Shown here: positions 3,401-46,395 of the stretch, in pieces | Numbering within the stretch: position 1 is the stretch's first letter | How the letters are laid out: every line of letters begins with the position of its first letter | Assembly (NCBI GenBank): GCA_025765595.1 | Contig: JAIVFH010000059.1 | Coordinates: 1-64,000 of the forward strand | Direction of reading: 5' to 3' | Length of the DNA: 64,000 bases | Source: Obelidium mucronatum | Lineage: Eukaryota; Chytridiomycota; Chytridiomycetes; Chytridiales; Chytriomycetaceae | Made by a program: the position numbers and the translations under genes | The notes under the pieces: model-generated | Seen by the model: only the letters and a program-made list of their open reading frames with translations | The model's database searches: none | What the model was told of the DNA's origin: nothing

Positions 3401-3660
3401 TAATAATCCTTTATTTATTATACTAGCTCTTTCCAAAAACATACACGAGCTACTTTGACAAAGAAGATTGCATCTTCTCTTACAGCAATGTTGGGAAGCA
3501 CATGTCAAAGTTCAATGCAAGATTGGTCCCAAAGCATCAAATATATAGTTGGAGTCCTACAGGTTTTCAAGATGTTGAAAAGTACTTTCAAGGGTGCCAG
3601 GAGGGAGTATTGGGAAATTCTTGGAAGAGGCAACCTGTTGTTCAGAAGAAAACCCAGTGA
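483..3660 (+). pseudogene. Transposon-borne acidic nuclear-type protein, broken copy 1
   Basis: Exon 1 (483-772) encodes a helical segment with LWSDLREVTKEL. A 63-nt in-phase intron removes a TGA, then exon 2 runs to about 1071 (KYIYG). A roughly 315-nt intron full of 12-bp repeats follows. The long next exon encodes Ser/Ala/Lys-rich sequence with KVSKAMPAPK repeats, then strongly acidic Glu/Asp stretches with basic KKKR clusters that resemble nuclear localisation signals. The last exons give a conserved-looking C-terminus (SYFDKEDCIFSY) ending at 3658-3660. Breaks: a frameshift near 1843 in a C run, loss of an exon block after 2910, and an early stop there. I do not recognise the family. Confidence 0.55.
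1087..1335. repeat. 12-bp ATTAGGAG tandem array inside an intron (copy 1)
   Basis: About twenty degenerate units of the form (G/C)(C/T)(A/G)(C/T)(G/T)ATTAGGAG, preceded by palindromic GATCCGATTCGC blocks, fill most of the intron between the donor GTGAGT at 1072 and the acceptor near 1386. The six-frame translations of the array are open by chance because the 12-bp period keeps frame. The same motif recurs near the element ends. Confidence 0.85.
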
Positions 3661-3844
3661 TATTTTGAGTGTTGTTTTTCTTTGATACTTCTTTGATTTT
3701 TCTTGGTTTTTTGGATTTTTCTTATTTTTTTTTTGAATTTTTCTTGGATTTTTGGATTTTTCTTTGATTTTTGCATAGTTGTATAAAAAAATCTTGTAAA
3801 ATTTTATTTACCCTTTAAATGCATTTATTTTAGATGTTTTACAT

Positions 3845-29171: not shown

Positions 29172-31020
29172 TCACTCAAAGTCATCAGCAACTCGTATAT
29201 TTTCCAAAATGGGAATAATCTGATCCCAATACTGTGCACACTGTTCGAAAACAAAAAATAAGTTCAGAGAAAGGCTATTGAAATTATTTTTTTTCGCTAT
29301 ACTTGACCTTATCGTAATACTCCACTTGATTGGCTGCATACGCTTTCAAATCTCTTTTAATGTCATCCAGCTTTGTCTTTTGGAAAAACTCCATTTCTCG
29401 CAGCATTTCCTTGTTGAAGGCCTTTGAAACTTCATCGGATGCTTGTACCGCTTCTTGAAGCTTTTTTTTTTAAATGTTAAATGGTTATTAAACGAACGTA
29501 AAAAGGAATACATAAGGTTATCAAAAACCTCTGTAATCTTGCTAGAAAGCTTCAAAATCTTTTGCTGCCTTGCTCGCTCCTGATCTACACCCTGAATCTC
29601 TTGGAACTTGTTCGTCAAAAACGATGCGATTCCACCGCCTCCGCGTTGAGGATTCAAAGCCTTCTCGCGTTCGGAAACATGATTCGCCAAATAAACTGTC
29701 AATTCTTCGAAATCTGTTTGCTTTTGGTCTCTCATGCGAAGTGTTTCCTTAAAGGTTTTTAGAATTCCACCCAAAAAAAAAAAAAAAAAATCAACCTTTG
29801 CTGCCATACAGTTCCCGATATACTCTTGAACGTTTGTCAAATAAACCAAATCCTCATGATTAATCCTCTCGCGGAGGATCGTGCACAAGTTTCTCAATAT
29901 ATTCCCAAAGTCAGTCAAGGGGCCAGTGATTTGTGTTTCCATAAGCCCTAGCGTGCTGATACAGCCTCCAAACTCCAACATATCAAGTTCATATTCTTTT
30001 TTTTTTTTTTGTCGTTCGTCAATGTGTCAGAAATACCGAGGGCACAGAAACAAACCAGTTTCGGCACGGATCAACTTGGAATGCAGTCTCTCCAAAGAAA
30101 TTAACGTGTCTTGGAACTTGTCCAAGTGTTCTTTAAACTCAGTGAATCGAGGATCAGGCTGCTTGACTTTGATGAATGCATTCAAAAGCACGTCGCTAAT
30201 GTTGTCAAAGACGTGAGTTTGTGCCGCCTTGGCGACCAATTCTGGGACCTGAAGAAAAGGAGAGGAGTCAAAAATCGGATTGACGAACCAAAAAAAAAAG
30301 GGCATTACAATCTCATTTGTTTCAAGGAATCGACGTAGAACTTGTGATTTGGCAATTAAAGGATGAGTTGCTAGTCGTTTCAAGTAGTTTTCAAGAGATA
30401 TTTTCCGCTTTTCGATAAACTCTGGGCTGAACCGATCTCCTGTCAGGTATTCTGTGATGTTTCCGAATATGAAATGTCAAAGGTGTGAATAACAAAAAAA
30501 GAGAAGATATACTCAACCCATTCGGTGTTTTCCTGGTAAAGCGGCAAGAATCACATGAGGGTATTCGTCAGAAAGAGCTTTGTGCAACCATGCAAAGTCT
30601 TGGAATCTTCTTCGAACAGATACTTCAGGCGATGAGAAAGATTCAAGACTCGTCTTTTTTTTAAAATGTGGTTCGTTTCAGCCTTTTGTAAATCAAGTGA
30701 CCCCAGAAAGAGAGTAGTACCTTTGTAGTGACCAAATAGTTCACGAAAGAGGCTGTTCCTTCCCCATGTCTCTGTGGATCTGAAACTGAGATATCGAGAT
30801 CCGTGCAGACTTCGAGTGGCAACAGAGGTGCCTGTGAGATTGATTGGCTGAGGGAGGGTTGGGTCTCGTCTTCGTCCTATAGTTTCAAAAGAGTCAGCTG
30901 GATAGAAAGAAAAGATTAGAGACAATTCCAATACCTGCGCTGACGATGAGTGGTTCCAGTTGTTGTTTGTGGGCGGAGTTGCTGTTCCTTCGGTAGTGCT
31001 GGAGTCATTATTCGTGGAGG
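29172..31020 (-). CDS. SNX4: Sorting nexin SNX4/Atg24-type, PX-BAR
   Basis: A chain of about eight exons. The PX domain reads ISVSDPQRHGEG, VNYLVTTK, VRRRFQDFAWLHKAL (phosphoinositide-binding RRF), ALPGKHRM and FIEKRKISLENYLKRLATHP. A BAR domain follows (HLDKFQDTLISLERLHSKLI, LDMLEFGGCISTLGLMETQ, LKTFKETLRMRDQKQTDFEEL, ERARQQKILKLSSKI) and the protein ends CAQYWDQIIPILEN...DDFE. SNX4 acts on endosomes in retrieval of SNARE proteins and in selective autophagy. The amino end is unresolved: the frame upstream of NNDSSTTEGT has no ATG before a TAA, and only about 70 bp separate it from the neighbouring HEM4 stop. Several introns contain poly-T or poly-A runs. Confidence 0.82.
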
Positions 31021-31090
31021 CTTTTGGTTAACTTTTTAAATCATCTTCTAATATTCTATATACACACTCTCTTCATTTTTGTAATATATA

Positions 31091-31864
31091 TTAATTCGCA
31101 TTGATAATTTGAGCTTCTATTATTGCGCTCATGAGCGATTCCGCATTGGGCGACTGGGCAACTGCGTGTACATCAACACCCATATCAACCAACGCCTTTT
31201 TCGTAGTCTGTCCAATACATGCAATGCAGACTTTATGTTCCCACTCGTTTCTGAATTGGAGAAGGATTGAAACTCCAGAAGGACTGAAAAAGGATATCCA
31301 GGTTTGCTGCGTAGACAGCACATCCGTCAACGACTGCCGAACCACCTCAACGCTCTCAGAAACAGTTTCATACACAACCAGAGACTCGACAGTGATGCTT
31401 CGATCCGTGTGTTGACTCAACCGTTTGGTCAAAGTGTCCAAAGTTTTGTCTCCCCGCAGAAACAGTATCCGCGACGGGCTTGCTTCGTGATGGATAATAA
31501 ATGAAGCCAAATCGTCTGCGTTTCCAGTTTCGGATCCTTCTGGGTGGAAGCCGAGTTGTTCAAGCAGTTGGTTTGACGATGGTCCGACGACAAAGAACGG
31601 TTTCCGAGTCCAACTCTTTTGGAGTGTGCTGTCAATGTGCGACCACGCGTTTGATAGAGATTCGATGGCTCGCTTGCTGGTTGCGACAATGGCGTCGGTT
31701 TGTTGGGGTTTTGATGGGTTGTTGAGAAGTGATTCTAAGGCGTTGCTGGAGAGCTGCGTTCGGAGCAGCGGCAGGTTGAAGCTTTCGAAACCTCTTTTAC
31801 TGGCTGCTGTCGTATACGCATCTGGTTTGTCATCGTCGTTGGATCGCAGAAATACAACAAGCAT
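31091..31864 (-). CDS. HEM4: Uroporphyrinogen-III synthase
   Basis: Intron-less, 257 residues, ATG at 31864. The HemD fold signatures are VVFLRSN at the start, DAIVATSKRAIESL, PFFVVGPSSNQLLEQLG, SRILFLRGDKTLDTL, VESLVVYETV, WISFFSPSGVSILL and CIGQTTKKALVDMGVDVHAVA, then SPNAESLMSAI. The enzyme cyclises hydroxymethylbilane to uroporphyrinogen III, the fourth step of haem synthesis, in the cytosol. Length and motif order are those of a complete enzyme. Confidence 0.88.
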   Translation of the reverse strand: MLVVFLRSNDDDKPDAYTTAASKRGFESFNLPLLRTQLSSNALESLLNNPSKPQQTDAIVATSKRAIESLSNAWSHIDSTLQKSWTRKPFFVVGPSSNQLLEQLGFHPEGSETGNADDLASFIIHHEASPSRILFLRGDKTLDTLTKRLSQHTDRSITVESLVVYETVSESVEVVRQSLTDVLSTQQTWISFFSPSGVSILLQFRNEWEHKVCIACIGQTTKKALVDMGVDVHAVAQSPNAESLMSAIIEAQIINAN

Positions 31865-32121
31865 TTTCTATCTCTTCTATAAAAAATCTATATCAACATT
31901 CTTCTACTGCATAATTTACGCGTTTCAATTATCCATAATTTGAGCATGCGATTGAGTAACGCGCTTATATTTATTTAGTTATTCTTCCTAATTTGAACAC
32001 GGCTCTTGTAAACTTGGAAGTTTCGACCCTATGGAGATGAGTAGACATTGTAACCAAAACAAATACGAAAACCCACTTATCGGATAGATAACAGTCAGCG
32101 CAAACGCTTAAGAATGAGATC
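31865..32121. other. Short intergenic stretch
   Basis: About 260 bp upstream of the uroporphyrinogen-III synthase gene and before the hairpin array. AT-rich, presumably the promoter. Nothing else seen. Confidence 0.5.
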
Positions 32122-32508
32122 ACCCTCCCATAACAACAAAAGGCCTGGAATCCACCAGGAGGAGTAGCCGTTTAACCCAACAGCGCACAAAAGTGCAGGG
32201 CCTGGAATCCACCAGGAGGAAGAAGTTGTTTAACCCAACAACGAAAGGGCCTGGAATCCACCAGGAGGAGTAGCTGTTTAACCCAACAGCGCGCGCAACA
32301 GCGCAGGGCCTGGAGTCCACCAGGAGGAAGAAGTTGTTTAACCCAACAACGAAGGGCCTGGAATCCACCAGGAGGAGTAGCTGTTTAACCCAACAGCGCG
32401 CGCAACAGCACAGGGCCTGGAGTCCACCAGGAGGAAGAAGCTGCTTAACCCAACAGCGAAATGGCCTGGAATCCACCAGGAGGAAGTTGTTTAACCGGAT
32501 GGGAGGGT
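32122..32508. repeat. Double-hairpin tandem array bounded by a perfect 10-bp inverted repeat
   Basis: Seven units of about 48-59 bp. Each begins with the hairpin CCTGGAATCCACCAGG and continues with a second hairpin around the loop TAACCC. Long and short units alternate, giving a higher-order period of about 107 bp. The second stem is GCTGTT/AACAGC in long units and GTTGTT/AACAAC in short ones, so both arms change together. Long units add a GC-rich third stem (GCAC-AAAA-GTGC in the first unit). The array is flanked by ACCCTCCCAT (32122-32131) and its exact inverse ATGGGAGGGT (32499-32508). Confidence 0.92.
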
Positions 32509-32526
32509 ATGTCTATAGTTGGTAGT

Positions 32527-32710
32527 GATGAATGGGCTTTCTCATTCTCCTACTTCGCAGATACTCAGATGATGAATGGGCTTTCTCATTCTCTCTGTCC
32601 TGCGGCGCCAGTTTGTTGTTTGATTCAGTGGTGATGAATGGGCTTTCTCGTTCTCCCGCTCCCCAAACACTTCTATCCAGATGACAAATGGGCTTTCTCA
32701 TTCTCTCTGT
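32527..32710. repeat. Four interspersed copies of an AATGGGCTTTCTCATTCTC motif
   Basis: Copies start at about 32528, 32571, 32634 and 32681, separated by unique spacers of about 20-37 bp. Two copies carry one or two substitutions. The core has a weak AATG/CATT dyad. It lies between the hairpin array and the 3' end of the transposase gene. Confidence 0.85.
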
Positions 32711-32775
32711 ACTGTGTTTCTCACTGTCGACGCAAGCGGCGCAAAAACAAAGTTTGTAAAGGTGAGTTTTGTTAT

Positions 32776-34920
32776 TTATTCATCCTCTTCTTCCTCTCCT
32801 TCACCATCATCTTCGTTGGTGTCTTCATCATCCTCCTCGTCATCCTTTTCTTGTTGTTCCTCCTCCGCCTCCATTTTGTCTTCGCTTTCGTTTCTAATAA
32901 CTCTTTTCTTCTTTGAGATTCCGCTCTGGATGTCCGCGTTTCTCAAGTCTGCGAGACACCACATAATGAAATCCGCTTGGACAGGCTTGTGGAAGCGAAT
33001 CAGGTGAGCGGTTTGATCGAACCACTTGGCACAGTGTTCTGCCGCGGACGTGTTAAACCTCCCCTTTCCATTTGCAGGCCCTCCTGACGTCAATTCCTTG
33101 AATTTTGCTGGATCGCAATGCTCTGTACAGAAGTCGTCCCTGTGCATCCGAAAGTGGAACCTGTCAACCACAAACGTAACAGTCTTGTACAAGAACCTGA
33201 TTCCAACAAAGATTGGTGGTAAGTATAAGAAGAGAACACTATATAATGAACAGAGCGCGTAATAATAAATAAGTTAAGTGCACCTTTCATATATTGTGAA
33301 TTTTCCTGCTACGTGTCGGGCCCGTAGGGATTGGAGCAAGCGGCAGGCTCTATCGTAGAAAACAAAGGTCGGTACTTTGCCCATTCGCGCAAAACAGTGG
33401 CATAAGAAGCGTGAAATAAAGGTAGAAGACTCAAAAGAGTACATCTTAGATATTCCAATGATCATGCCGCAGCTCCACACAGCCATAAATATTCCAGGCA
33501 GGAACCGCTGCTTCAGACTGTACTTGAACCGCTGATCCGCTACTAACTCTTTTTCTTGTGTATCAATATGCACTGTAGATGTTCGCGTTTTCTTGGACTT
33601 TCGCGTCACTTTAAAGTCCTTGTTCCACTGTTTCCCAATGATTTCCTGGACAGTCGCGTTGTGAGCGCTGAGTCCGCAAGTATGCAAAACAGTGTCTGTC
33701 TTTTTTCGCTTGCAGCCAGAGATGATGCACTCATTCCTCAGCTGGGCATGTGATGAGCAGAACAATGTGTTCACACCAAGAATAGGCAACACACACCCAG
33801 GCACAGAGCACAATAGATGCCCCATGACTTTCCCATCCATTACACTGCCAGAGATTTCCTTTCCGTTGTAAAACTGGTGGTAGCCGTTGCAGCGGTGCTG
33901 CCACTTCTTGCTGAAGTAATCAGTCATGAACGTGACGTATTCCCGCATCGCGGGTCTGATGTCATGAATAGAATCACCTGTTTTTGGTAAGTATGGACCC
34001 AGAAATAGGGAGTTGTTCCACAAATGTGTTGTTTTGGGGGCCCAGGAAGGTCTGAAGTGAGTGTACCGCATATGTTCATAGTCATCATTGGCAGCGATCT
34101 TGGAGATGTACTGCTGTAGTAGTAGCATGTGATACACGTAAAATCCACGTTTGAAGATCACTGCGGTGTCTGGATCAGGCACTTTGATGGTAGGGAAGGC
34201 CAGTGAATATGTGCGCTGCTCACGATACAGCTTCACCCTATGTGTGAAGTATGAGTAAAAGATCAATTTAGTATTTACCATGCAAGGAAAGACTAACAGA
34301 AGGCCAGACGGCAGGTGCTTTAGCCAGAGATCCGCAAAAGGTATGGTGACGTAGTACTGCTCATTGATCTTGAGGAAGCCAACTGACATGATAGTTTCAA
34401 GCGGATACATCTCTATCAGCTGCTTCTGTTTGTCTTCGCTCATGTACGCGACAGAATCCACATTGTACCACATGCGGCATTTAGTGCAGTTGCCCTTGAA
34501 CAGCGACGCGTGGTATGGGCCTTCCATCCCCAACACCACTACTTGTGTGCTGCTGAAAGTCAAGTTTTTGGTGCACCTGTGGCATTGCGAGAATGGAGCC
34601 ACAAGGACAGATGGCTGGACAGGTTTCCAGTGATTGACCGCGTCCATGCCTGGACACTGGAATACTTTGTCTGCCAAGGTAAATACTGTTTCATTGGTCA
34701 AGGAAAACTGCTTGGAGATGTGATCACAGATCGCCCTCATGCGGTTGTTGTCATATAGTTTGACTGCAGTCTTGAACCTATGCAGGAACGGCTTGACTTT
34801 CTGCAACTCGTTGGCCAGCACAACTACAGCTCTTGCTTCATCTATAAAGGACATGATGGTTGTTTTTACTTTTGTTGTTCTGAACATTCCAGAATGCCTC
34901 CCTTCTTTCCAATTCATTTT
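32776..34920 (-). CDS. CxC-KDZ transposase
   Basis: Two exons (34920 to about 33281, and about 33192 to 32776) joined in phase across an 88-nt intron (donor GTGCAC, acceptor GGAATCAG), restoring FTIYERFLYKTVTFVVDRFH. ATG 34920 (MNWKEGRH) is the first real start; MSFIDEARAV is an alternative. The N-terminal cysteine clusters (CHRC, CTKC, then SVPGCVLP, CSSHAQLRNEC, SGCKRKK, HTCGLSAH) are the CxC zinc-like modules that precede KDZ domains. The RNase H-fold core shows FVFYDRACRL (catalytic Asp in the YDxAC motif), VVDRFHFRMHRDDFC and NTSAAEHCAKW (catalytic Glu). The tail is a long acidic run. The frame is uninterrupted, so the protein may be functional. Confidence 0.85.
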
Positions 34921-35064
34921 TGATAAGTTTGCGTTCAGCCTGTTGGGGCAAACCAAACAATTGCAATCAACGCGACGCTATAGGTCCAGTATATTGGCAA
35001 TAAATAATTCTTTAATTGTGTCATAGGGTTTTCCTTTATTGCATGTGCTTCTATAGTTATGATA

Positions 35065-36221
35065 TCACTTTCTCTTTGATCCTCCCACTTTTGCATGTCT
35101 CACCCTTTCCATCTTCTCCCTATTTACTTGTTTTGCTTTCAGCCTTTTTGAAACACCTTGCTTTGCTGCTTTGGCTGCAGCTTCCCTTTTGGCATCACCC
35201 CGCACTGTCCAACTTGACACTAACTCCGCCACCGCATCCCTCACCCCATCAAACCTGCAATCGCTATACTCTTCTATAGTTAGCAAGTCCCCTTCCAACT
35301 CATGACAACCACCATTGGCACCCTTGAAGATAGTAGAGCGGAAATAAAACCAAACCATGTAGTAGTGGTGCTTGATGTTGGTGTTCCCCCAAAGGTAAGT
35401 GTGCTTGCTGGCACAATTGTACTTGTACACATACAGGTAGTCCTTTGGAAAGATGACGTGGGCGCCGCCCATGATGGATGTCGCGTCCCTGGTTGTTGAG
35501 ACTGTGATCACAGCGTGTGGGTAGCCAGAAGGAATGACGGAGAGATCGCCAGGCCTCTTTACAAAGCAGATCCTTGCTGTGTATGTGCAGGAAGGGCCCA
35601 CCTCCAAAGCCATGGCTTGAGCGAAAGACAGGGGATTAAGGGTAGGGATGATGGCTGTAGGGTCGCTGGGGACAAGCACCACCCACAGCTTGAATAGCTG
35701 CTGATTGGTGGGTAATTGAAGGAGGACGTTGATGGCTGTTCCATAGTCCTGATGGAGGGGGGAGTGGCGGTACTGGTTGATGGGTTGACACAACATGATT
35801 GGAGCGGAAAACACCTGCATGCTGCAGCTCCCATTGCTCCAATGGATCAAAAAACCCAGAGACAAAGCTCCTTTTGTGTGGTTGACTGTTCGTGGTAGCA
35901 GGCTGTGGGATAATACTCCCCTGACGTCAAGCGATCTGCAGGAATATTGGAGGATGGCAGGAATAGAATCTTGCCAGGATTGGCAAGAAGGAGGCATTCC
36001 AAGCGCGTAAGATCCAGGTTGCAGTCCGACAGGATATAGATGCGGCTGCGATCCAACAGGACTTGCTCAATTTGATCCAGAGTGGCAAGGATCTCAGCAG
36101 GAGCAGCAGGACACGCTCTAATTGCTGTGATCGGGTTGATAGAAGAGGTTGATGCTGTTGTATGTTTGGTTGAGGCTGTGGCAGCGGCGGCGGCTTGGCG
36201 TTGTCTTGTTGAGCGTCGCAT
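35065..36221 (-). CDS. JmjC/cupin-type Fe(II)/2-oxoglutarate dioxygenase-like protein, reading frame disputed
   Basis: ATG at 36221. The first frame (to about 35945) has a Thr/Ser/Ala-rich start and LLANPGKILFLPSSN. The last frame (from about 35776 to 35065) contains SPLHQDYGTAINVLLQL, where HQD is the HxD metal motif, FKLWVVLVPSD (like the JmjC GxKxWxLxP strand) and GDLSVIPSGYPHAVITVS, a typical distal-His strand. Spacing between HxD and distal His is about 90 residues, as in small JmjC proteins. A basic, Lys-rich tail ends the protein. Between the two frames a stretch in a third frame (SFVSGFFDPLEQWELQHAGVF) also looks coding. The first join fits a 44-nt intron; the second would need a 19-nt intron or a frameshift. 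The gene may therefore be mutated. Confidence 0.55.
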
Positions 36222-36380
36222 TCTTCAAGTCAAAGTGATGAGGGAGAACACAACAACGCAGAGAATACTTTATTACAGCTTTGTAGCCGTTGATATGCAA
36301 GGAATACTTTGATTCAATAAATTACCTTAGTATTGTTGAGTTAACTTGATTATTTATTTATTTATTTATCTATTAATGCA
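36222..36380. promoter_or_regulatory. Divergent promoter region between the two dioxygenase genes
   Basis: The 159 bp between the two ATGs must hold both promoters. It is AT-rich and ends in a (TTTA)n tract at 36350-36370, like the tract downstream of the plus-strand gene at 37680. Confidence 0.45.
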
Positions 36381-37660
36381 ATGGACAAAACGCGTAACAA
36401 ACGAAAACGCGTCAAAAAGTCAGCATCCACCGCTGCACACCAGATGCTGAAACGCCAAAAGCACATGTCTGAGCAGGGATTGAGCCGCGCTGATATTATA
36501 GGTTGGTGGGCCAACTTCTTTTTTTTGCTGTGGTTGGTGTTAAACATTTTCAGCAACAAAACCTGCAGAGCTGCGAGTGCTGGATGACAGAACCAAGGGA
36601 CAGGAGTTTGTGTACGGTCTAAACACAGACGGAGTTGAAGAGCTTGTTGCAGGGAGGTGAGGGTTTTTTTGGTGTTGTTGCAGTCCAAGCGTTGCTAACA
36701 ACTTGGGAGTGCTATTAGAATCAAACTGCCGCCCTATATACTCAAGGACGCCATGCCGCACATCCGCGATCTCGCAGCTATCTTTCGACGCTCGCAGCCA
36801 AAGGTCAAGACGCGCGGCAACATGCGAGTCATCAACCTGTGCTCCTGGACTGGAGTTGCAGACGGCATCAAGGACCCGCACTACCCAGCAGATGTAGCGT
36901 CTGTCAAGGTAAAAGAACATGCCGAAAAAGTAGCGAACGGGCTGGCGGTGTTTGGAAAGGAGAACATCAAGCCAGAGCTGCTGCCCCACTTTGAGGGCCT
37001 TCAGCCGCTGGTCGCTTACCTCACTGGGCGTTGTGGAGTCTCTGGTACATCGGGAGGCAGTTCGAGATGGTGGCCAACATTACAAAGGTATGTGTTTGTT
37101 ATAGTTTAGTGCTTACCTTCTAATTGCGAAAACGAGACCAATAGGAAGTTGCAACCACATGTGATCCCATCTTTGGGATCTTCACGTCCTCGTTTCTTGC
37201 GTGCTCAAACAACGGGGACTTCAAGTTCCACCTGGACAGCAAGAATTCGACTTTCGGGATCAACTTCAGTGTTGTGGTGGATGAGGAAGACGCGGAACCG
37301 CCCGTGGTATGGCCAGCACTGTACCTACCAGATCGAAATGTGGTGATCCCAGCGGTTCATGGGGAGGCGATTGTTTCCATGTTCAAGCATGAAAAACATG
37401 GGACCAGGATGTGGCATTCAGGGGAGAGACGATTTGCGGAGGCAGCGGAGTTGGTGGCGGAGGTAGATACTAGAAAGCGGAGAATCTCGCTGATTCTGGC
37501 AGATGGAATGGGAACAGCGAGTTGGGCTGTGAAGCACAACCAGGACAGGTTTGTGGGAAGCGCTGTGGTGGAGAAGCGGGGAGTTACCTTCAACATTAAT
37601 CGCGATGCCACAGATCGCAATCGGAAGATACGGGAATCGGTTTTGCAAGCCCTGGGTTGA
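36381..37660 (+). CDS. TET/JBP-like Fe(II)/2-oxoglutarate dioxygenase
   Basis: ATG 36381 (MDKTRNKRKRVKKS, strongly basic). Intron 1 runs from about 36502 to 36565. Intron 2 (about 36658-36718, with a TGCTAAC branch site) joins VEELVAGR to IKLPPYILKDAMPHI. The body reads MRVINLCSWTGVADG. After an intron at about 37088-37144 the catalytic half reads FHLDSKNSTFGINFSVVV (HxD), VVIPAVHGEAIVSMF, HEKHGTRMW (distal His) and RKRRISLIL (2-oxoglutarate Arg). This is the TET/JBP layout, an enzyme class that oxidises 5-methylpyrimidines in DNA. Near 37015-37050 the frame shifts between VAYLTG and LWYIGRQFEMV with no obvious intron, so one indel or unrecognised splice is present. Ends RESVLQALG. Confidence 0.65.
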
Positions 37661-37674
37661 GCAATGTGTACTTA

Positions 37675-37990
37675 TTTACTTATTTACTTATTTATTTATT
37701 TATTTATTGATAATAAACAGCCTTAATAAACAGCCTTATTTGATACATTTTTTGTGGCTTATTCTTGAGTTTTAGTGACAGTTGGGGGTTAGCGGCCTGT
37801 GAACAAGTGGCTTGCGGCTCGCGCCCCACATAAAAAGGTACAGAGCGGCCTGCCAACAGGCCGTGGCACAGGTCGCAAGCGGCCCGCTAGCGGCTTGTCA
37901 GCAGGTCGCAAGCGGCCCGTGAGCGGCTCGCAACGCGACCGGTATCGCGACTCGCGAGGTCCGGCCCGCATCCCCAATTGTTTTTGTGTG
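37675..37990. repeat. ATTT simple repeats and GC-rich degenerate tandem repeat
   Basis: 37676-37710 is (TTTA)n, followed by a duplicated AATAAACAGCCTTA. 37790-37980 is a sharply GC-rich block with repeated CAGGTCGCAAGCGGCCCG and AGCGGCTTG/AGCGGCTCG units, ending in CGACCGGTATCGCGACTCGCG. It separates the KDZ genes from the LINE remnant and may be the element end. Confidence 0.75.
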
Positions 37991-38010
37991 GTCCCTGTCG
38001 CATTTGTCCA

Positions 38011-39249
38011 TTATGATAGCCCTTTAAATTCACTGTTATAGGCGTGCATCAGTTTTTGGGCTTGCTTGTCAGTGCACTTTGTTTCTTGTAGTAGTAGGAC
38101 GTCAACACATTGTTCTTTTATTAACTGGGATATCTCGATCATTGTGATGTCAGTAAGTCCTCTACAGTTGTATGTTGCCACTCTCAATGTTTTTTCCGAT
38201 TTTGTTCGCATTTGGCTAAGTTTTCCTATAAATTTGTTGTTATGTTGATCTGTTTCGTGGCCTATTAGTTCAATGATATGCTGATCTGTTTCGTGGGTTC
38301 CATGGTTGTCTTGGCGTTTTGTTGTGTCCGCCAGAGGTGTTACTGGCCTCTCAGGTTCACTGGTGTCTCCTCCTGTTTTGTTTTGGGCCAATAGTTTCTC
38401 TGGTTGTGTTCTGAGCAATGTTTTCATAAGTTTATCAATTTTCTTTCTGACATCTTCACTAATTGTGGTTGCAATTCTTTGAGGTTGAGGTGTTTCCGCT
38501 CTTTCAGTCCCTTTTGCGAGGTCTGCATGGTTGAATTTCTGAAGCTCTAGCCATTGTGTTCTTTTTAAGTTTAGGTGGTTCTGTTGTTCTATGCTGGAGC
38601 CACCCGCCTGCGGGTATTGGTTTTTGGCGGTTTCCAGTTGTTGTACTATCGCCGCAGATGTTTCTGATAGGTTCTGTTGTGTGTTATCACTTCTACAATG
38701 ATTTTTTGGATCATTGTGTTCCTTTTTTCCCTCGAGTCCAATTCTACAAGGCTTGGGGTTGGTCTCATGAATTGGGATGGTGTGTGTTTCCCTTTTGTTT
38801 CGTTTACCCCTGGCTTATGTTCTCTCAATTTCCTCTTTTTTGTTGCGTGGCTGAGGTTTTGGCAGGTATCATTTTTTCTTTTCTTTAAGGTTGGTGGTGT
38901 TAGTGGCGTTCAATGTTATGGTTTCTGCAAGTGCCTTGTTGTTTGGGACTGTTGCTTGAACTGTTGGGCTGTTTTCGGTGTTCTTTCGAAAGTTGAATAG
39001 GGATTCAACGCCTTCCATTTGTGGGCGTGTTTTGTATTTTCTCCTTTGGGTGGAATCATTTGTTCCCGTCTTTTCCTTTATTGTGATGTTCCCCTTGTAT
39101 TGTTTGCAGTAATGTCTGTTTTCTGATTCTACTTTGGTGTAACATGTTCCAGTAGTATTTCTTCTTTTATTTGTGTTTTTCTCCCTTTCGTTCTCCTTGT
39201 TCTCGCCCCCACTTTCTTCCCTCCCCCGCTTCTTTTCCGGTTTACTCAT
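38011..39249 (-). pseudogene. LINE ORF2, endonuclease start only, frameshifted
   Basis: ATG 39249 overlaps the ORF1 stop. The first 126 residues are Lys/Asn/Glu-rich, then the frame breaks (stops at 38869 and several further shifts between 38830 and 38430). Open again from 38427, it contains LRVATYNCRGL and DVLLLQETKC, the first two motifs (Asn, Glu) of the apurinic-type EEP endonuclease. It ends at 38011, before the remaining endonuclease motifs and the reverse transcriptase. Not functional. Confidence 0.75.
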
Positions 39250-41734
39250 TTTTGGTTCGGCCCAGTTTCAGGGCGTTTGGGGTTGTCACTTCCGCGTCCT
39301 CGTCTTCGATGTCCATCGCCTCTTCGTTGATGTCAAAGACCACTCCCTGTGCAACCCCAGTCTCCACTTCAAGTCTGTCAATGTTCCGGTCAATTCTTTC
39401 TATGTTTTGGTCGGTTCTGAGCTGGTTTTCCTCCATGCGGCTGATAGCTTTGTCCACGGCTTCCATCCACGTCGACGATGGGCTACTTCTTGGGTGGGTT
39501 TCTTCTTCCCTCATTTCGTCCATTTTCTCCCCCTCTTCCGCCAGTCTTTCATCTCTTTCCCGCCCAAATTCGTTTTTCCACTCTTCCAACTCCTCCGCGA
39601 TTCTGCTGTTAACCAGGTTCTCCATCACGTTTGTCATCTCTTCACTGATCACTTTCTTGACTAGCTCGCGGATCTGGGCCTCCAGTGTGTTGGTGATGGC
39701 AGCATTGGTGTGGTTAGCGGTGGCGTTGTAGGCTACACATGGCTGGAATCCGGTGTTGTTGGGTTGAGCGTTTGGCCAGGCATTGTCCATCCGTCGTCCC
39801 AGTGCTGGCTTGGTTGGTGGTTGCGTTGGCGGCACTGGTCTTGGTCGTTGGTGGTGTCTCCCGTCTTCTTTTTGAATCCATGCTGCGTCGACTTTGATGC
39901 GTACTGTCTGGCATCCGCTCGCCTCCGCCTGGGTTAGGCCTCCATTGCGTTCTGCGTACCCTCTAACCGATTTTTCAATTCTCTTGATGTTGGCGCTGCT
40001 GAAGTTGTAGACCAGATGTTTGTCGGCTACTCTTTGCCAGTCCAGTTCTTCCTGCTCGCGTTGGCTTTGGCAGAGGTGGCTCGGATGGTCTTTCTGGCAG
40101 TATCTGCAGTGGTCTCGGAGGCGGTAAGTCCCTTGGTCCATTACGTATTTGCGGTAGACTGTTGTTTGGACTTTGTATCCATTTGCTTGTGTGGTGATCT
40201 GTTGTGTTTTTTTTGGGATATTGTTTTTCTTTAGTTTTCGATTTTTTTCCCAAGTGCAGATCTCGCTCACCTGTTTCCCATCCCATCTGCATGCTTCAGC
40301 CGTGGTTGTCACCAGGATTTCAAGCCCGTCACGGGTAATTTTGATGCGTTGGTATTCGATGCTTTTGACTTTGAACCAGTCTTTAAGTTCTGTTCCATCA
40401 TCCAGGTCAGGTGCTATCAACCACCTTGGTCTTTCCCTGTCAATTCTCATCTGGATCGGCTCGTTAGGGTCGACCGGGTATACGTGATGGCCATTGAATG
40501 GTATTCCGGACACCTCCAGTGCCTGGATCTTCTCCGCTTCCGTGCTGTAGCTCAGTGTGACAACCACTTTGCCACTGCGGCTGTTAGGGTCTTCTTTTCT
40601 GTATTGGTCGTTTGACTTGACTCCAGCAAACTTGTCGAAGGCTTCCGCTACTTCTTTGGCAACAGTTTGGGCGTTCTTCCTGAGTGGGTTTGTGACTTCC
40701 ATTATCATTACTGTTGGTCTCATGGTTTCGTCTTCCTGGCTCATTTCAAAGAATATTCTTGGGTCTCCTCGTAGGGCGATTTCCTGGTTGAGGAAGTGGA
40801 ACTGGCTGCGTGTGCATTTGAAGGTGAGCCTATTTCCCAAAGTAGTTTCCGCGATTGTTGGTACTGTAATTCCCACTGAGTTGAGTATTCTGCCGAGCTT
40901 TGCTTTAGACGATCTTTCTTTAATTCCTCCCGCCTCAGCAAGTTCGTCAATGTGTGTTTTCTTAATGTGCGCGTTGATGGTCTGGTTTAAGTCTTCGGTC
41001 GCGCTCATTTCGTATTTTCTCGTGTTCCGGTGGTTATCACTTTGTTTATTTTGGTTGGTTCTTTGTCTGGATTTTCCCGCCATGTTTTTGCTCTTCGCTG
41101 TTTCCTTTTTTCCCGCCCTTTTTGATGTGTCGTTTTTTGAGTGCTTCAATTGGTCTTTTACCTTCCTCTTTTTTATTCCGTCTTTGTTTGTATTGTTTCG
41201 GTTTACTCTTCTTGGTATTTGGTGTTGGCTCTTGTTCATTCCACTTTCCATCGTTTTTTTCCTTATATGTCTACGTTTTGGTTCAATAAAACTCCTTTCA
41301 TCCTTCTGACTTGTGTTAGTGCGGTCGCTTGCGGTGTTGTTGCTATTGGGAGAGTTATTTAGTTTATCTTTTCTTCTTTTCTCCCTTTTTCTTCTCTCTT
41401 TTTCTATAACGTTTCTTTTTATTCTTTCTGTTGGGTCTGTGTACTTGGTGGGGTCGGTGGGGTCAGAGGGGTCTGTGGGGTCACGTTGGTTGGTGGTGAT
41501 GTTGTGCAGGACTTGTTCTGGCGTCGACTGGGCAAATGCATCGTGCACAGCCAGGGGCCCCATTTCGGCTGCCCCTTCTCCGTCCCTTCTTCTTGGGTTC
41601 GACAGTCGTCTGTCCCCCCCCAGATCCCGCCAGCGATCACCTCTTGGCACTGACGTCGACGGGGCATATGCATCATGCATAGCCGGGGGCCCCGTTTCGG
41701 CTGCCCCCTCTCCGCCCCTTTTCCAAAAATCCAT
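39242..41734 (-). CDS. LINE ORF1, gag-like RNA-binding protein
   Basis: Intron-less, 830 residues from ATG 41734. The N-terminus holds two copies of a GEGAAE(T/M)GP..HDA segment. A long Lys/Arg/Asn-rich region is followed by an ordered part (LTFKCTRSQFHFLNQEIALRG, VVVTLSYSTEAEKIQALEVSG, which looks RRM-like), and CRYCQKDHPSHLC, a CCHC-type zinc knuckle. The C-terminal third is acidic coiled coil (VMENLVNSRIAEELEEWKNEF). This matches ORF1 proteins that coat retroelement RNA. The frame is fully open, so the element is not ancient. Confidence 0.7.
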   Translation of the reverse strand: MDFWKRGGEGAAETGPPAMHDAYAPSTSVPRGDRWRDLGGDRRLSNPRRRDGEGAAEMGPLAVHDAFAQSTPEQVLHNITTNQRDPTDPSDPTDPTKYTDPTERIKRNVIEKERRKREKRRKDKLNNSPNSNNTASDRTNTSQKDERSFIEPKRRHIRKKTMESGMNKSQHQIPRRVNRNNTNKDGIKKRKVKDQLKHSKNDTSKRAGKKETAKSKNMAGKSRQRTNQNKQSDNHRNTRKYEMSATEDLNQTINAHIKKTHIDELAEAGGIKERSSKAKLGRILNSVGITVPTIAETTLGNRLTFKCTRSQFHFLNQEIALRGDPRIFFEMSQEDETMRPTVMIMEVTNPLRKNAQTVAKEVAEAFDKFAGVKSNDQYRKEDPNSRSGKVVVTLSYSTEAEKIQALEVSGIPFNGHHVYPVDPNEPIQMRIDRERPRWLIAPDLDDGTELKDWFKVKSIEYQRIKITRDGLEILVTTTAEACRWDGKQVSEICTWEKNRKLKKNNIPKKTQQITTQANGYKVQTTVYRKYVMDQGTYRLRDHCRYCQKDHPSHLCQSQREQEELDWQRVADKHLVYNFSSANIKRIEKSVRGYAERNGGLTQAEASGCQTVRIKVDAAWIQKEDGRHHQRPRPVPPTQPPTKPALGRRMDNAWPNAQPNNTGFQPCVAYNATANHTNAAITNTLEAQIRELVKKVISEEMTNVMENLVNSRIAEELEEWKNEFGRERDERLAEEGEKMDEMREEETHPRSSPSSTWMEAVDKAISRMEENQLRTDQNIERIDRNIDRLEVETGVAQGVVFDINEEAMDIEDEDAEVTTPNALKLGRTKNE

Positions 41735-42010
41735 AGTCCAGGTTCCGCTCCAGATCCAGATCCAGTCAGGCGTCTATCAATCCGGCGCTGCCCGTCGCTG
41801 CTTTTCCTACAGTAAAGAGTGTGGTAAGTACTGTAGTGGTGAGTACTTACTTCGATGATCGCCCATCGTCCAGATCCAGATCCAGAGTTTTGCCCGGCCC
41901 CCGCGCGCTCCGCTGCCGCCACGTCATCCCACCCACCGTGGACAGCAGCGGCAGACGCACGAGGACCCCCGTTGTAGGGATTTTCGTTTGTCTGCTGCAT
42001 TCGGTGGTAT
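41540..42010 (-). repeat. Tandem-repeated 5' segment of the LINE
   Basis: Blocks with GGGGCCCC(A/G)TTTCGGCTGCCCC occur at about 41555 and 41686, 131 bp apart. CCAGATCCAGATCCAG occurs at about 41752 and 41870. It resembles the monomer-type 5' regions of some LINEs that act as internal promoters. Confidence 0.6.
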
Positions 42011-42059: not shown

Positions 42060-42232
42060 GAGCTACTAGCGCCCCTTATCGGCCCTGATTAGGCTCCGAA
42101 TCGGACTAAATCCTAATCGGATCCGATTAGGAGCCCTATTCGGAATTGCTCTCCGATTCGCTTCCGATTCGGAACACTATTAGGAGCGCGATTAGGATTG
42201 CTATTAGGAGTGCTATTAGGACCAACACTTAC
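42060..42232. repeat. ATTAGGAG repeats at the left edge of copy 2
   Basis: 42060-42143 repeats the roughly 80-bp block seen inside the right end (about 3997-4085; 46050-46130), in direct orientation. 42150-42225 holds 12-bp ATTAGGAG units that appear to be the intron of the minus-strand gene: a perfect GTAAGT donor (minus strand) lies at about 42227-42232. Confidence 0.7.
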
Positions 42233-42792
42233 AGCATTACAGACGGCACATTCTTCAGCCACAAATTTGCAAATGCAACAGTCATGTAGTATTTAGAATT
42301 GATTCCAATGACTTTTTGCTTTCTGATTGTATTCATTGGGTAATGTTCTATGGTGCTGTTTCCTTCGGTAATCTCTGACACTGAATCAACATCATACAAC
42401 TGAATACTGCAGCTCAAATTCACACAGCTGGATTTGTACAGAAGACCTGATTTAGCTGAATCTGCATCCAAGATTGTGACTTCTTGCCATCTCCCAATCT
42501 TTAGATGGCTCTGACACTTGATGCAGTATGTAAACGGAGCTGACAGGATAATAGGTACATTTGGGGTAATTGTTTCGTGAATTCTTGAATCAAAGACAGC
42601 CTCTGCTGTTTGTTTGGCTGCCAGGATGGGAACGCCAAAAGAAGTAGCAACAAGCTGAATGAAATCCCGCAAACGGAGTGTCTTGTTGTAAGTCTTTTCA
42701 AAACTGCCGTAGATTGAAAACTCAGCTTGGAAGGCTGGGAACTGTTCTGCCAGCTGAGCTCCCATCTTGACATGTGAGGCAGGGATTTTCAT
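42229..42792 (-). pseudogene. CxC cysteine-cluster protein related to KDZ transposases (copy 2, truncated)
   Basis: ATG 42792 (MKIPASHVKMGAQL). It shows the same YCIKC and SCVNLSC pairs as copy 1, then YYMTVAFANLWLKNVPS, aligning with YYVTIPFADLWLKHLPS of the intact KDZ transposase at 34330. An exon boundary (GTAAGT) follows, leading into the repeat-filled intron. No downstream exon exists because the LINE sequence begins within about 170 bp. The catalytic domain is therefore missing. Confidence 0.7.
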
Positions 42793-42816
42793 TTTTTTCG
42801 GCAAAGTTTTTTCCCC

Positions 42817-45712
42817 ATGCAATCACCAACACTGCCACTGCCAGACACACTGCCATCCCTCAGAGTCAGCAACGACCCGAACAGACTGTCCATCCAGTTC
42901 TCTTTCGATGAGATCAAGAATGGCTTGTGGAAACAGGCTCCTTACAAGACCTTGGATGACAAGAAGACCATCTTCATCTTGTGGAGTGATCTGCGAGAAG
43001 TCACCAAAGAGCTCTGTCCTGACCTGCACCAAAGAGTCATGGAAACCAAGGGGTCTCCTAAAGAGCTTGTAGAGGAGGCCACTGAGGCACTGGACAAGAT
43101 GTTGAGGTCTGGGTTTATTTGTTTGTGTTTGACAGGTGATCGCTGACACACCACTCCCAACCACAACAGATACATCAACTCCAACAACACATGGAAGCTA
43201 GTGTTTTTGGATAAAACCAAATGTACAGTCCACATCCCTGGGCTGAAGAACAAATCCCAGGCAGAAGTGTACAAGTGGATCAAAGACACAAACCAGGATT
43301 TAACAGCACTGGAGGACCTCTGCTTCAGTGGGATCGTGGATATAGATGGAAATCGTTCCGAAAATGATGAGGAACGCGCAGCGGCGCTGGCGAAATACAT
43401 ATATGGTGAGTCTTATTCATTTTGGTGTGATGCGCGATTCGCGATCCGATTCGCGATCCGATTCGCTTCCGATTCGGAACGCTATTAGGAGCGCTATTAG
43501 GAGCACGATTAGGAGCCGATTCGGAGCGCGAATCGGATCGCAATTAGGAGTGCGATTAGGAGTGCGATTAGGAGCGCTATTAGGAGTGCGATTAGGAGTG
43601 CGATTAGGAGCGCGAACCGGAGCGCTATTAGGAGCCGATTCGTAGCGCGATTAGGACCACAATAACAGCCCTTTAATTTTCTAATAATCTAACCCTTTTT
43701 ATTATTCTTTTATCTTTTAGCTAGAAAAGTTTCAAACAACAAGTACCATGTTGTTTTTGCTCCTACTCCTGCTGACACCAATGCCACCAAGATTGCCAAG
43801 AAGGCTACTGCTCGTGCCGCAAGACAACAGGCTGCTAATGAGGTTAGGTCTGATAGTGAACCTGATATTCCTCCTATCAGCCAGCTTCCAGGTTCTGCTG
43901 CAGAAAACGAGCCTAGAAGAGCTATCAAGTCTAAAATTTCATTTCCACTCTTGGGATCAGCTTCCAAAGTGTCCAAGGCAATGCCAGCTCCCAAAGTGTC
44001 CAAGGCAATGCCAGCTCCCAAAGTGTCCAAGGCAATGCCAGCTCCCAAGACAGCAGACAAGACAGCTGATTCCAGTTCCAAGCCAGTGCCAAAAACAGCT
44101 GTCCTCAAGCCAAGATCTGCTGGTGCCTCCAAGACTGCTTTATCCAAGTCAATGTCTGTTCTCGAATCTCAGGCTTCTACGGTGGTATCTCCCGCAGTTG
44201 CTGAAAGCATTGATAATCTCAAGGCTAGCCTAAAGGCTTGGGCAGAAACTCACAGAAAGTCAACAGATGCTGACGATTCAGAAAGTGAGTTAACACCACT
44301 TGACAATGCGCCTGAAGGGTCTGAAGCTGATGAAGATGATGAGATTGGGGATGTTGATGGTGGAGAAAATGAGCTTGATGCTGAAGAGGAAGAGGAGCAG
44401 GAGGGGGATGAGGAGGATGAGGAGGAGCAGGAGGTACCAGTCCAGCAAAGAAAGAAGGTTCAAGCAATTGTGATTGAAGATGATGATGATGAAATTGAGG
44501 TGGTGGAGCCAGTTGTACACAGAAAGAAGCGTTGTGTGGAGAACATAGATGAGGAGGAAGATGAAGTTGAGGATGATGAGGATGTGGTGGATGAAGAAGA
44601 AGTGCAGGCTCATCCCAAAAAGAAGCGATGTGTCATGAATCTTTTGGGCAGTGATGGAGAAGAAGAAGCAGAGGTGAAAAAGATGGTTTCTGTTAAATGC
44701 AAGTTTCAGAATCAAGGAGCAGTTTTTCGTTGTAATGTGGAAGGGACACTTGCTGAGGGAAACAAGGCAAAAGGTGAGACCAAGTTGTTGTCTATATTGT
44801 GCATTTTTAACAATCAATCCATTATTAGTTTTTCTTGCTGATGTTTTGGCTGCTGCAAAAGTCCATCCAGCCACAACCCACTTTCGCAGGAAGGTCCACA
44901 GTGTTAGTTGGTTCTGCCAAGAGGAGTACATCTTTGACGAATCAGTTTTGGTGGACATTGCTTTGGATCCACACAGCCCTGATTACTTTGATGTTGCCTA
45001 CACTGATTCTGGTAGGATGCCATTTTGTTTAAACATATTTCTCAGTATTTTTGGTATTTAGGAGCAATGTTTGATCCATTTGCAAGTTCTCCATTGATTA
45101 ATTCATCTGTGACTGGGCCATCTCTGCAAGAAAAGCCATCTTCCATCGCATCCAAACAGCGTCGCCAAGTCCCCACGTCTGTTGCTGAAGTTGTTGCCAA
45201 AGCCAAAGGACGCACCGGCACCCAAGACAAGTTCATTAGTCAAGTGAAAGAAGTTGGTATCCGCTTTTCTTACCTGACGCAGGATCGAGAGCCACCAATG
45301 ACCAAAACTCTTGCTGCTGCAACCTTGTCAAAGGAATTCCCCAACTTTGGAAATACTGTGGAAATTTTTCGGGCTTATGTTGGAGTCTACTTTGCTGATT
45401 TGGAATTCAAAAGAGTAAGTTTTATTTTAGTATCACTTCAAGCAATTTCTTTTAATAATCCTTTATTTATTATACTAGCTCTTTCCAAAAACATACACGA
45501 GCTACTTTGACAAAGAAGATTGCATCTTCTCTTACAGCAATGTTGGGAAGCACATGTCAAAGTTCAATGCAAGATTGGTCCCAAAGCATCAAATATATAG
45601 TTGGAGTCCTACAGGTTTTCAAGATGTTGAAAAGTACTTTCAAGGGTGCCAGGAGGGAGTGTGGGCAAATTCTTGGAAGAGGCAACCTGTTGTTCAGAAG
45701 AAAACCCAGTGA
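42817..45712 (+). CDS. Transposon-borne acidic nuclear-type protein, better preserved copy 2
   Basis: Exons chain in phase: 42817-43106, 43170 to about 43405, 43721 to about 44774, about 44861-45011, about 45061-45415 and about 45479-45712. The 63-nt first intron removes an in-frame TGA. Protein of roughly 750 residues: N-terminal helical domain (FILWSDLREVTKEL, TWKLVFLDKTKCTVHIPGL), three KVSKAMPAPK repeats, Glu/Asp-rich middle with KKKR clusters, and an ordered C-terminal half (HPATTHFRRKVHSVSWFCQEEY, DKFISQVKEVGIRFSYL, KTYTSYFDKEDCIFSY, EKYFQGCQEGVWANSW). I do not recognise the family. It may be a transposon accessory or DNA-binding protein, given its divergent pairing with a KDZ-type gene. 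Confidence 0.6.
43424..43665. repeat. 12-bp ATTAGGAG tandem array inside an intron (copy 2)
   Basis: Equivalent to 1087-1335 with only a few substitutions (for example CAATTAGG for CGATTAGG). It fills the intron between the GTGAGT donor at 43406 and the TTTTAG acceptor at 43720. Confidence 0.85.
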
Positions 45713-45896
45713 TATTTTGAGTGTTGTTTTTCTTTGATACTTCTTTGATTTTTCTTGGTTTTTTGGATTTTTCTTATTTTTTTTTTGAATTTTTCTTGGA
45801 TTTTTGGATTTTTCTTTGATTTTTGGATAGTTGTATAAAAAAATCTTGTAAAATTTTATTTACCCTTTAAATGCATTTATTTTAGATGTTTTACAT

Positions 45897-46183
45897 TCAA
45901 TAGTGCTAATAGGGCCCCAATAGGAGTCCTACTAGGAGATGTATTAAAGCCATTTGGTTTCCAATTGGCAGAGCAAAATGCTATTAGGAGTCCTACTAGG
46001 AGCAGACAAATGCTACTAGGAGCAGTCCTATTTGCTCATTTGCAATTAGGAGTGCTACTAGGGCCCCTAATCGTCCCTGATTAGGCTCTGAATCGGACTA
46101 AATCCTAATCGCATCCGATTAGGAGCCCTATTCGGACCCCGAATAGGGCCCCGAATTGCGCGTGCCGCTCGGACCCTGCGCTG
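45897..46183. repeat. Subterminal ATTAGGAG/CCTAAT repeat region (copy 2, right end)
   Basis: Matches 3845-4139 and ends at the same GCGTGCCGCTCGGACC block. Follows a low-complexity TTTTTCTTGGATTTTTC tract (45735-45830) shared by both copies. Confidence 0.8.
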
Positions 46184-46395
46184 TCATGGGTGGCATGTCA
46201 TCTTTCCAAAGGACTACCTCTATGGGTACAAGTATAATTGCGCCAGCAAGCACACCTGCCTCTGGGGGAACAAAAACGTTAAGTACCACTAATACATGGT
46301 TTGGTTTTATTTTCACTCTACTATCTTCATGCCAATGGCAGTTGTCAAAAGTTGGAACAGGACTTATTAAGTATAGAAGAGTATTGATACACAAG
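46184..46395 (+). pseudogene. Fragment of a second JmjC-like gene
   Basis: Plus-strand translation reads HVIFPKDYLYGYKYNCASKH and MVWFYFHSTIF with stops between, matching HVIFPKDYLYVYKYNCASKH and MVWFYFRSTIF of the JmjC-like gene at 35490-35320. DNA similarity runs on to about 46392 (TATAGAAGAGTAT in both) and is lost after that. Only the C-terminal third survives. It begins exactly where copy 2 of the transposon unit ends. Confidence 0.85.

Follow-up and report, generated by a model that had tools for sequence, protein, structure and literature searches.

A KDZ-type DNA transposon family of Obelidium mucronatum that carries a TET/JBP-like and a JmjC-like gene in one unit

The first 64,000 bases of contig JAIVFH010000059.1 (C59) of the chytrid Obelidium mucronatum, hereafter the window, contain one truncated, partly decayed copy of an autonomous-looking family of DNA transposons of the KDZ (Kyakuja, Dileera, Zisupton) type. 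The KDZ name was reportedly coined by Iyer et al. in 2014. In this family a CxC6-type KDZ transposase gene is accompanied by a divergent TET/JBP-like gene and, on the transposase strand, by a JmjC-like gene, and it is nearly certain that they form one mobile unit with its cargo. What appears to be new here is a KDZ-type element with a JmjC-like gene; its anatomy is observed, whereas the functions of both accessory enzymes are proposed. With a probability of about 0.65, we read the whole as a TET-carrying KDZ-type transposon to which a second, probably chromatin-directed dioxygenase has been added as anti-silencing cargo.

Window positions 30001–42000 were compared by blastn with 15 fetched genomic stretches of ~10 kb each. 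The loci named here (L031–L058) all come from the same genome (48.3 Mb, 694 contigs), and recurrence therefore means recurrence within it. Pieces matching chitin synthase (19) and radial-spoke proteins (6) in this genome agree with a flagellated fungus. The original prediction placed the element at 32776..37660, bounds that proved too narrow, as homology spans 32517–37980. Exons and introns were modeled from the sequence by the GT-AG rule, and the resulting features are as follows.

32517..37980, no strand assigned: truncated transposon copy, matching L034, L035 and L037 at 97.4–99.1% identity (blastn)
32776..33196, minus strand: transposase exon 2 with VVDRFHF, NTSAAEHC and an acidic tail (spliced frame)
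33197..33283, minus strand: predicted transposase intron, 87 bp, GT-AG, whose removal fuses frames 33274–34977 and 32776–33273 stop-free
33284..34854, minus strand: transposase exon 1, counted from a candidate start Met and containing CxC5-like and CxC6 clusters (PF18721, E 3e-13)
35065..36221, minus strand: JmjC-like gene, one exon, frame broken in the window (open frame 35065–36066 plus intact copies)
35515..35550, minus strand: GDLSVIPSGYPH with the putative distal His (sequence; aligned with a host JMJD6-type JmjC protein)
35746..35754, minus strand: HQD, putative Fe ligands (sequence, pattern test)
36381..36501, plus strand: TET-like exon 1 (GT-AG model checked on copies)
36554..36656, plus strand: TET-like exon 2 (GT-AG model checked on copies)
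36719..37087, plus strand: TET-like exon 3, frame broken relative to L031, L034 and L037 (GT-AG model checked on copies)
37145..37660, plus strand: TET-like exon 4, which holds HLDSKN, a distal KH and RRISLI (open frame, alignments)
37951..37980, no strand assigned: intact right end with inverted core CTCGCGAGGTCCGG, closing ...CCCCAATTG, common to L034, L035, L037, L038 and L045, the flanks differing

The block 32517–37980 is matched nearly whole in L034, L035 and L037, in pieces in L032 and L038, and partially in L031, L033, L036 and L045; blastn gave no match to it in L039–L044, which carry a second KDZ family. Past 32517, L032 (with an insert), L034, L035, L037 and L038 stay alike for ~3.9 kb. 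This ~3.9 kb is missing from the left side of the window copy, which rules out a complete element there; the unit in L034 measures 9373 bp (~9.37 kb). In L034, L035, L037 and L038 the unit begins CAATTGGGGATG and terminates TATGGGGACAC, and all four copies with both ends read are flanked by perfect, mutually different 8-bp target-site duplications (CACAATTC, AAAACACA, ATGAGAAG and CTGTCCAA). At the L034 ends the outer 16 bases match poorly, and after them comes an identical inverted CCGGACCTCGCGAG. Read from one end, the order is the TET-like gene (outward), the JmjC-like gene (inward), the transposase in the JmjC-like direction and a fourth, acidic region. The unit, its ends, its 8-bp duplications and its fixed gene order are thus directly observed. 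In the window, the left part was lost at a junction adjoining a 107-bp tandem array, and the target-site duplication is unreadable because the left end is gone. The array (3.4 copies, 32132–32496) is itself adjoined by an inverted pair, ACCCTCCCAT / ATGGGAGGGT.

Six-frame searches of the genome yielded 99 pieces for the transposase frame (including the second family, ~44% identical), 130 for the JmjC-like protein and 150 for the last TET-like exon, these being counts of pieces and not of element copies. From these matches the 25 best JmjC-like places were picked, together with 44 TET-like and 33 transposase places; 105 further JmjC-like pieces lie outside the count. Partners were accepted if a diverging TET-like gene lay within 3.5 kb or a transposase 3′ within 1.5 kb. 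By these criteria the TET-like gene stands beside the JmjC-like gene in at least 23 of the 25 places and the transposase in at least 18, and both partners, with order and orientation kept, are found in at least 16, the figures being lower bounds because a short transposase fragment at C72 was left off the picked list. Since both partners recur in 16 of 25 places, the three-gene arrangement is not due to chance. Recurrence of the JmjC-like gene beside a KDZ-type transposase had been set beforehand as a check on the original prediction, and it is indeed found in this genome (18 of 25 places). Together with the ends and duplications, this bears out the claim that a CxC6 transposase, a divergent TET/JBP-like gene and a same-strand JmjC-like gene travel as one unit. 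All motifs named in that prediction are present as well: HLD, KHG and RRISL in the plus-strand frame 37145–37660, LHQD and GDLSVIPSGYPHAV in the minus-strand frame 35065–36066, and the CxC (CxC6) transposase in the minus-strand frame 33274–34977. The three predicted genes are therefore there, but not all intact: the JmjC-like and TET-like frames are broken in the window, the transposase is open after intron removal, and complete copies hold the fourth region in addition.

The transposase matches CxC6 (PF18721) at 49.8–50.2 bits, well over the cut-off of 27.5, whereas CxC5 (PF18718, 21.8–22.2 bits) falls under its cut-off of 26.9, as does the KDZ core (PF18758, cut-off 26.6), which the spliced window protein matches at 15.4 bits (E 0.016); the unspliced L034 frame gave no match to PF18758. 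We take FYD of exon 1 to be the site of the first catalytic Asp, and VVDRFHF and NTSAAEHC of exon 2 presumably hold the second Asp and the Glu. The ratio of nonsynonymous to synonymous substitution rates (dN/dS) is 0.22–0.36 in all six pairs, and the protein would mobilise the unit. A fragment of the second CxC6 KDZ family lies in the window at 42229–42822 (minus strand); its fetched copies, L039–L044, are alike over >3.4 kb at ~95%.

Beyond the transposase, complete copies have the fourth region of acidic frames, which is absent from the window copy. The genome contains 74 pieces that match one of these frames. The region has no Pfam match above cut-off (best DUF7355, E 0.007), and its DDDVVIV stretch resembles what we take to be a SUMO-binding motif.

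The TET-like gene encodes 368 aa in four exons and is open in three of nine copies (L031, L034 and L037), broken in the window, and unjudged in the other five (L032, L035, L036, L038 and L045), where fixed splice patterns did not fit. HxDxxN, a distal His and an Arg are expected of 2-oxoglutarate (2OG)-Fe(II) oxygenases of the TET/JBP kind. When the last exon is aligned with L054, L055 and three host Tet_JBP proteins, six columns are invariant (H29, D31, N34, H85, R113 and I117), and the invariant columns shared with the host proteins are limited to these. In hhalign comparisons, the match of the element protein (L034, L056) to the second TET-like family is firm (E 4.5e-11) and that to Tet_JBP marginal (E 0.01 to 0.08), although none of 100 shuffles did as well. 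Eight matches to Tet_JBP (PF12851) occur in the genome, one of them over the cut-off and none inside this element. The last exon has a dN/dS of 0.05–0.10 in six pairs (the window with L034, L035, L036 and L038; L034 with L036 and L038), with Fisher p 4e-9 for L034/L036; in two further pairs, with one change each, it is 0, and L056 is too diverged for dS. Judging by sequence, the protein is probably a TET/JBP-type dioxygenase. The second TET-like family comprises L054 (C280), L055 (C15) and members on C81 and C441; it is 27% identical to the element exon (23–24% for L054 and L055 in the above alignment) and has no Pfam match. At L049 (C225), a Tet_JBP gene adjoins a frame which, we presume, resembles a Plavaka/CACTA-type transposase. 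Many genome pieces cover only TET-like residues ~106–171, as if short derivatives retained that end of the element.

The JmjC-like gene encodes 384 aa and is open, with a start codon, in six of nine fetched copies, being broken in the window, L031 and L037. Its layout is HxD...KxW...GD...P...H, which occurred in 4 of 200000 shuffles and in 15 of 458 distinct open reading frames (ORFs) of the fetched DNA, namely 13 from the element and two host JmjC proteins. Of 368 queries compared by hhalign with a profile that combines human JMJD6 and a JMJD6-type protein of the host, the JmjC-like protein scored best (E 0.0012, 31 columns), aligning PGDLSVIPSGYPHAVITV on PGETVFVPGGWHHLVINL, and none of 100 of its own shuffles was as good. 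The match to host frame L058, which we assume to be KDM4/5-like, has E 0.31. In all six pairs with the diverged copy L057, which are not independent of one another, dN/dS is 0.21–0.22 (Fisher p 6e-10 for L034/L057). A JmjC-fold dioxygenase is thus the likely identity, as far as these alignments and motifs can tell. Both accessory frames are open in many copies and under purifying selection on the informative comparisons. A JmjC-like remnant at 46182–46384 (plus strand) of the window, 58–83% identical by pieces, comes from another decayed copy.

The setting is one in which repeats appear to be silenced. The genome has 22 pieces matching C5-methyltransferases. In 11 old loci compared with L034, C-to-T changes are found at 260 of 1999 CpG and at 286 of 9781 other C, a 4.5-fold CpG-to-TpG excess, and in six young loci (the whole window included) at 94 of 4060 CpG and 109 of 17541 other C; L057 alone has little CpG excess. 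By this measure the old copies look as if they had been cytosine-methylated. According to a 2026 review (PMC13297926), N6-methyladenine (6mA) largely replaces 5-methylcytosine (5mC) in early-diverging fungi, the part of the fungal tree in which this system is set and which is reported to favour 6mA, and CcTet acts on both marks.

In the mechanism that we consider, the TET-like enzyme would act on element DNA by oxidising a methylated base there (5mC and perhaps 6mA as well), the JmjC-like enzyme would demethylate or hydroxylate a chromatin protein, and with the two silencing layers lifted together the element could be expressed and able to move. That both accessory enzymes act against silencing has a chance just short of even. 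Somewhat more doubtful is the fuller version, a two-layer kit in which a DNA-mark dioxygenase (5mC or 6mA) is joined by a JmjC-type enzyme that removes or blocks a mark on a chromatin protein, the acidic fourth region possibly aiming both at the element.

Several observations weigh against this reading. The pattern used for the JmjC-like layout was drawn up after the protein had been seen. The JMJD6-type match is limited to its 31 columns, and one shuffled profile reached E 0.0035. The JmjC-like protein has no Pfam match, PF02373 included, at E up to 10 and no PDB match by sequence; the TET-like protein likewise has no Pfam match, PF12851 matching none of six members of TET-like set A2 at E up to 10, the only PDB match of the TET-like protein by sequence is irrelevant (E 1.3), and two unrelated background ORFs outscored it against Tet_JBP (E 0.01). 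On the double-stranded beta-helix expected of both proteins, single-sequence structure models are uninformative, with a mean pLDDT (predicted local distance difference test) of 36.0 for the TET-like and 35.4 for the JmjC-like protein, the latter with 11 strands and then a helix; a fold search with this low-confidence JmjC-like model returned 55 matches within E 10, none of them at 0.001. In the diverged copies L056 (TET-like) and L057 (JmjC-like), Tyr replaces the first metal His. The dN/dS values are 0.23–1.01 in the remaining TET-like pairs listed and 0.40–1.52 among young JmjC-like copies, where changes are scarce (L034 and L035 are identical). Finally, the element has undergone no less CpG decay than the second KDZ family, with which no TET was found: the excess ratio there is 3.9–5.9, and tblastn located neither a TET-like nor a JmjC-like gene in its six stretches of ~10 kb. 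Repeats thus look methylated and a protective effect of the TET-like gene is unseen, because the second family shows an equal excess; the idea that this gene shields the element from CpG decay is unsupported.

Alternative explanations differ in how much of this they accommodate. It is rather unlikely, though the strongest of them, that the JmjC-like protein, with a JmjC or cupin fold, hydroxylates a substrate other than chromatin (a translation factor, RNA or the transposase), and that the TET-like enzyme alone opposes silencing. Its nearest match, the JMJD6 type, belongs to a group with hydroxylases among its members, one PDB name being 'arginine demethylase and lysyl-hydroxylase', whereas the location of the gene, in a silenced repeat and next to a TET-like gene, speaks, indirectly, for chromatin. 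The TET-like protein could also belong to a different class of 2OG-Fe(II) oxygenases with no activity on DNA, as its lack of a Pfam Tet_JBP match, the hhalign E of 0.01 and the spacing of 28 residues from distal His to Arg, compared with ~9 in host L046, would allow. We nevertheless regard this as distinctly unlikely, given that HxDxxN, the distal H and the R are common to the host Tet_JBP proteins and that KDZ elements are documented carriers of TET genes (PMC12730594).

The numerous broken copies, the window's included, and the weak or neutral dN/dS of several pairs would fit accessory genes that do nothing for the element, being passengers or remnants; the open frames in many copies, dN/dS of 0.05–0.22 in the more diverged informative pairs and a gene order kept in 16 of 25 places make this improbable. 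That independent elements came to nest next to a transposase by chance borders on the inconceivable: a fragment of a long interspersed nuclear element (LINE)-like element and the tandem array do adjoin the window copy, but the gene order recurs and a single pair of ends with 8-bp duplications encloses it. A nest of unrelated genes is ruled out by that recurrence and those duplications.

Consistent with the original prediction, KDZ transposons with TET genes are already known in fungi: the text of Kojima 2025 (PMC12730594) documents TET+ KDZ transposons in rusts, mushrooms and truffles, and 8-bp target-site duplications in Zisupton and Dileera. The present element likewise joins a KDZ-type transposase and a TET/JBP-type gene in one unit with 8-bp duplications. 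It differs in its host, which lies outside the three reported fungal groups, in its JmjC-like gene and fourth region, and in a TET-like protein that is too diverged for Pfam and has HxD in place of the HxE of the PE type (PMC12730594). The words 'JmjC' and 'chytrid' are absent from the main text of that paper, and in the open-licence PubMed Central (PMC) literature we found none that combines KDZ and JmjC, so that the JmjC-like partner appears, as had been supposed, undescribed within that literature. Like JMJD6-type and other JmjC dioxygenases, the JmjC-like protein shows the same succession of HxD, KxW, GD/GE, P and a distal H; unlike them, it is transposon-borne, has its own N-terminal region and a basic C-terminal helix, and is significantly similar over 31 columns only. 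Plant VANDAL transposons encode an accessory protein, VANC, that is believed to counteract silencing, in that respect like the cargo here, although VANC is not known to be a dioxygenase. No relatives were confirmed in viral contigs or prokaryote genomes. The presence of TET genes on DNA transposons suggests that these elements fight DNA methylation directly; JmjC-like cargo, if truly such, would extend the contest to marks on histones or other proteins, and the element would then offer a compact natural system for testing whether both layers have to be lifted for transposon expression.

To the right of the transposon end at 37980, a LINE-like element occupies 38011–41773 (minus strand) and comprises a long frame with a CCHC-like motif, plus the beginning of a frame for an endonuclease (PF03372, E 5e-4, under cut-off); the transposon may have inserted into it. 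Elsewhere in the window, a series of tandem repeats at 1101–3773 recurs at 43435–45828, suggesting a duplicated stretch.

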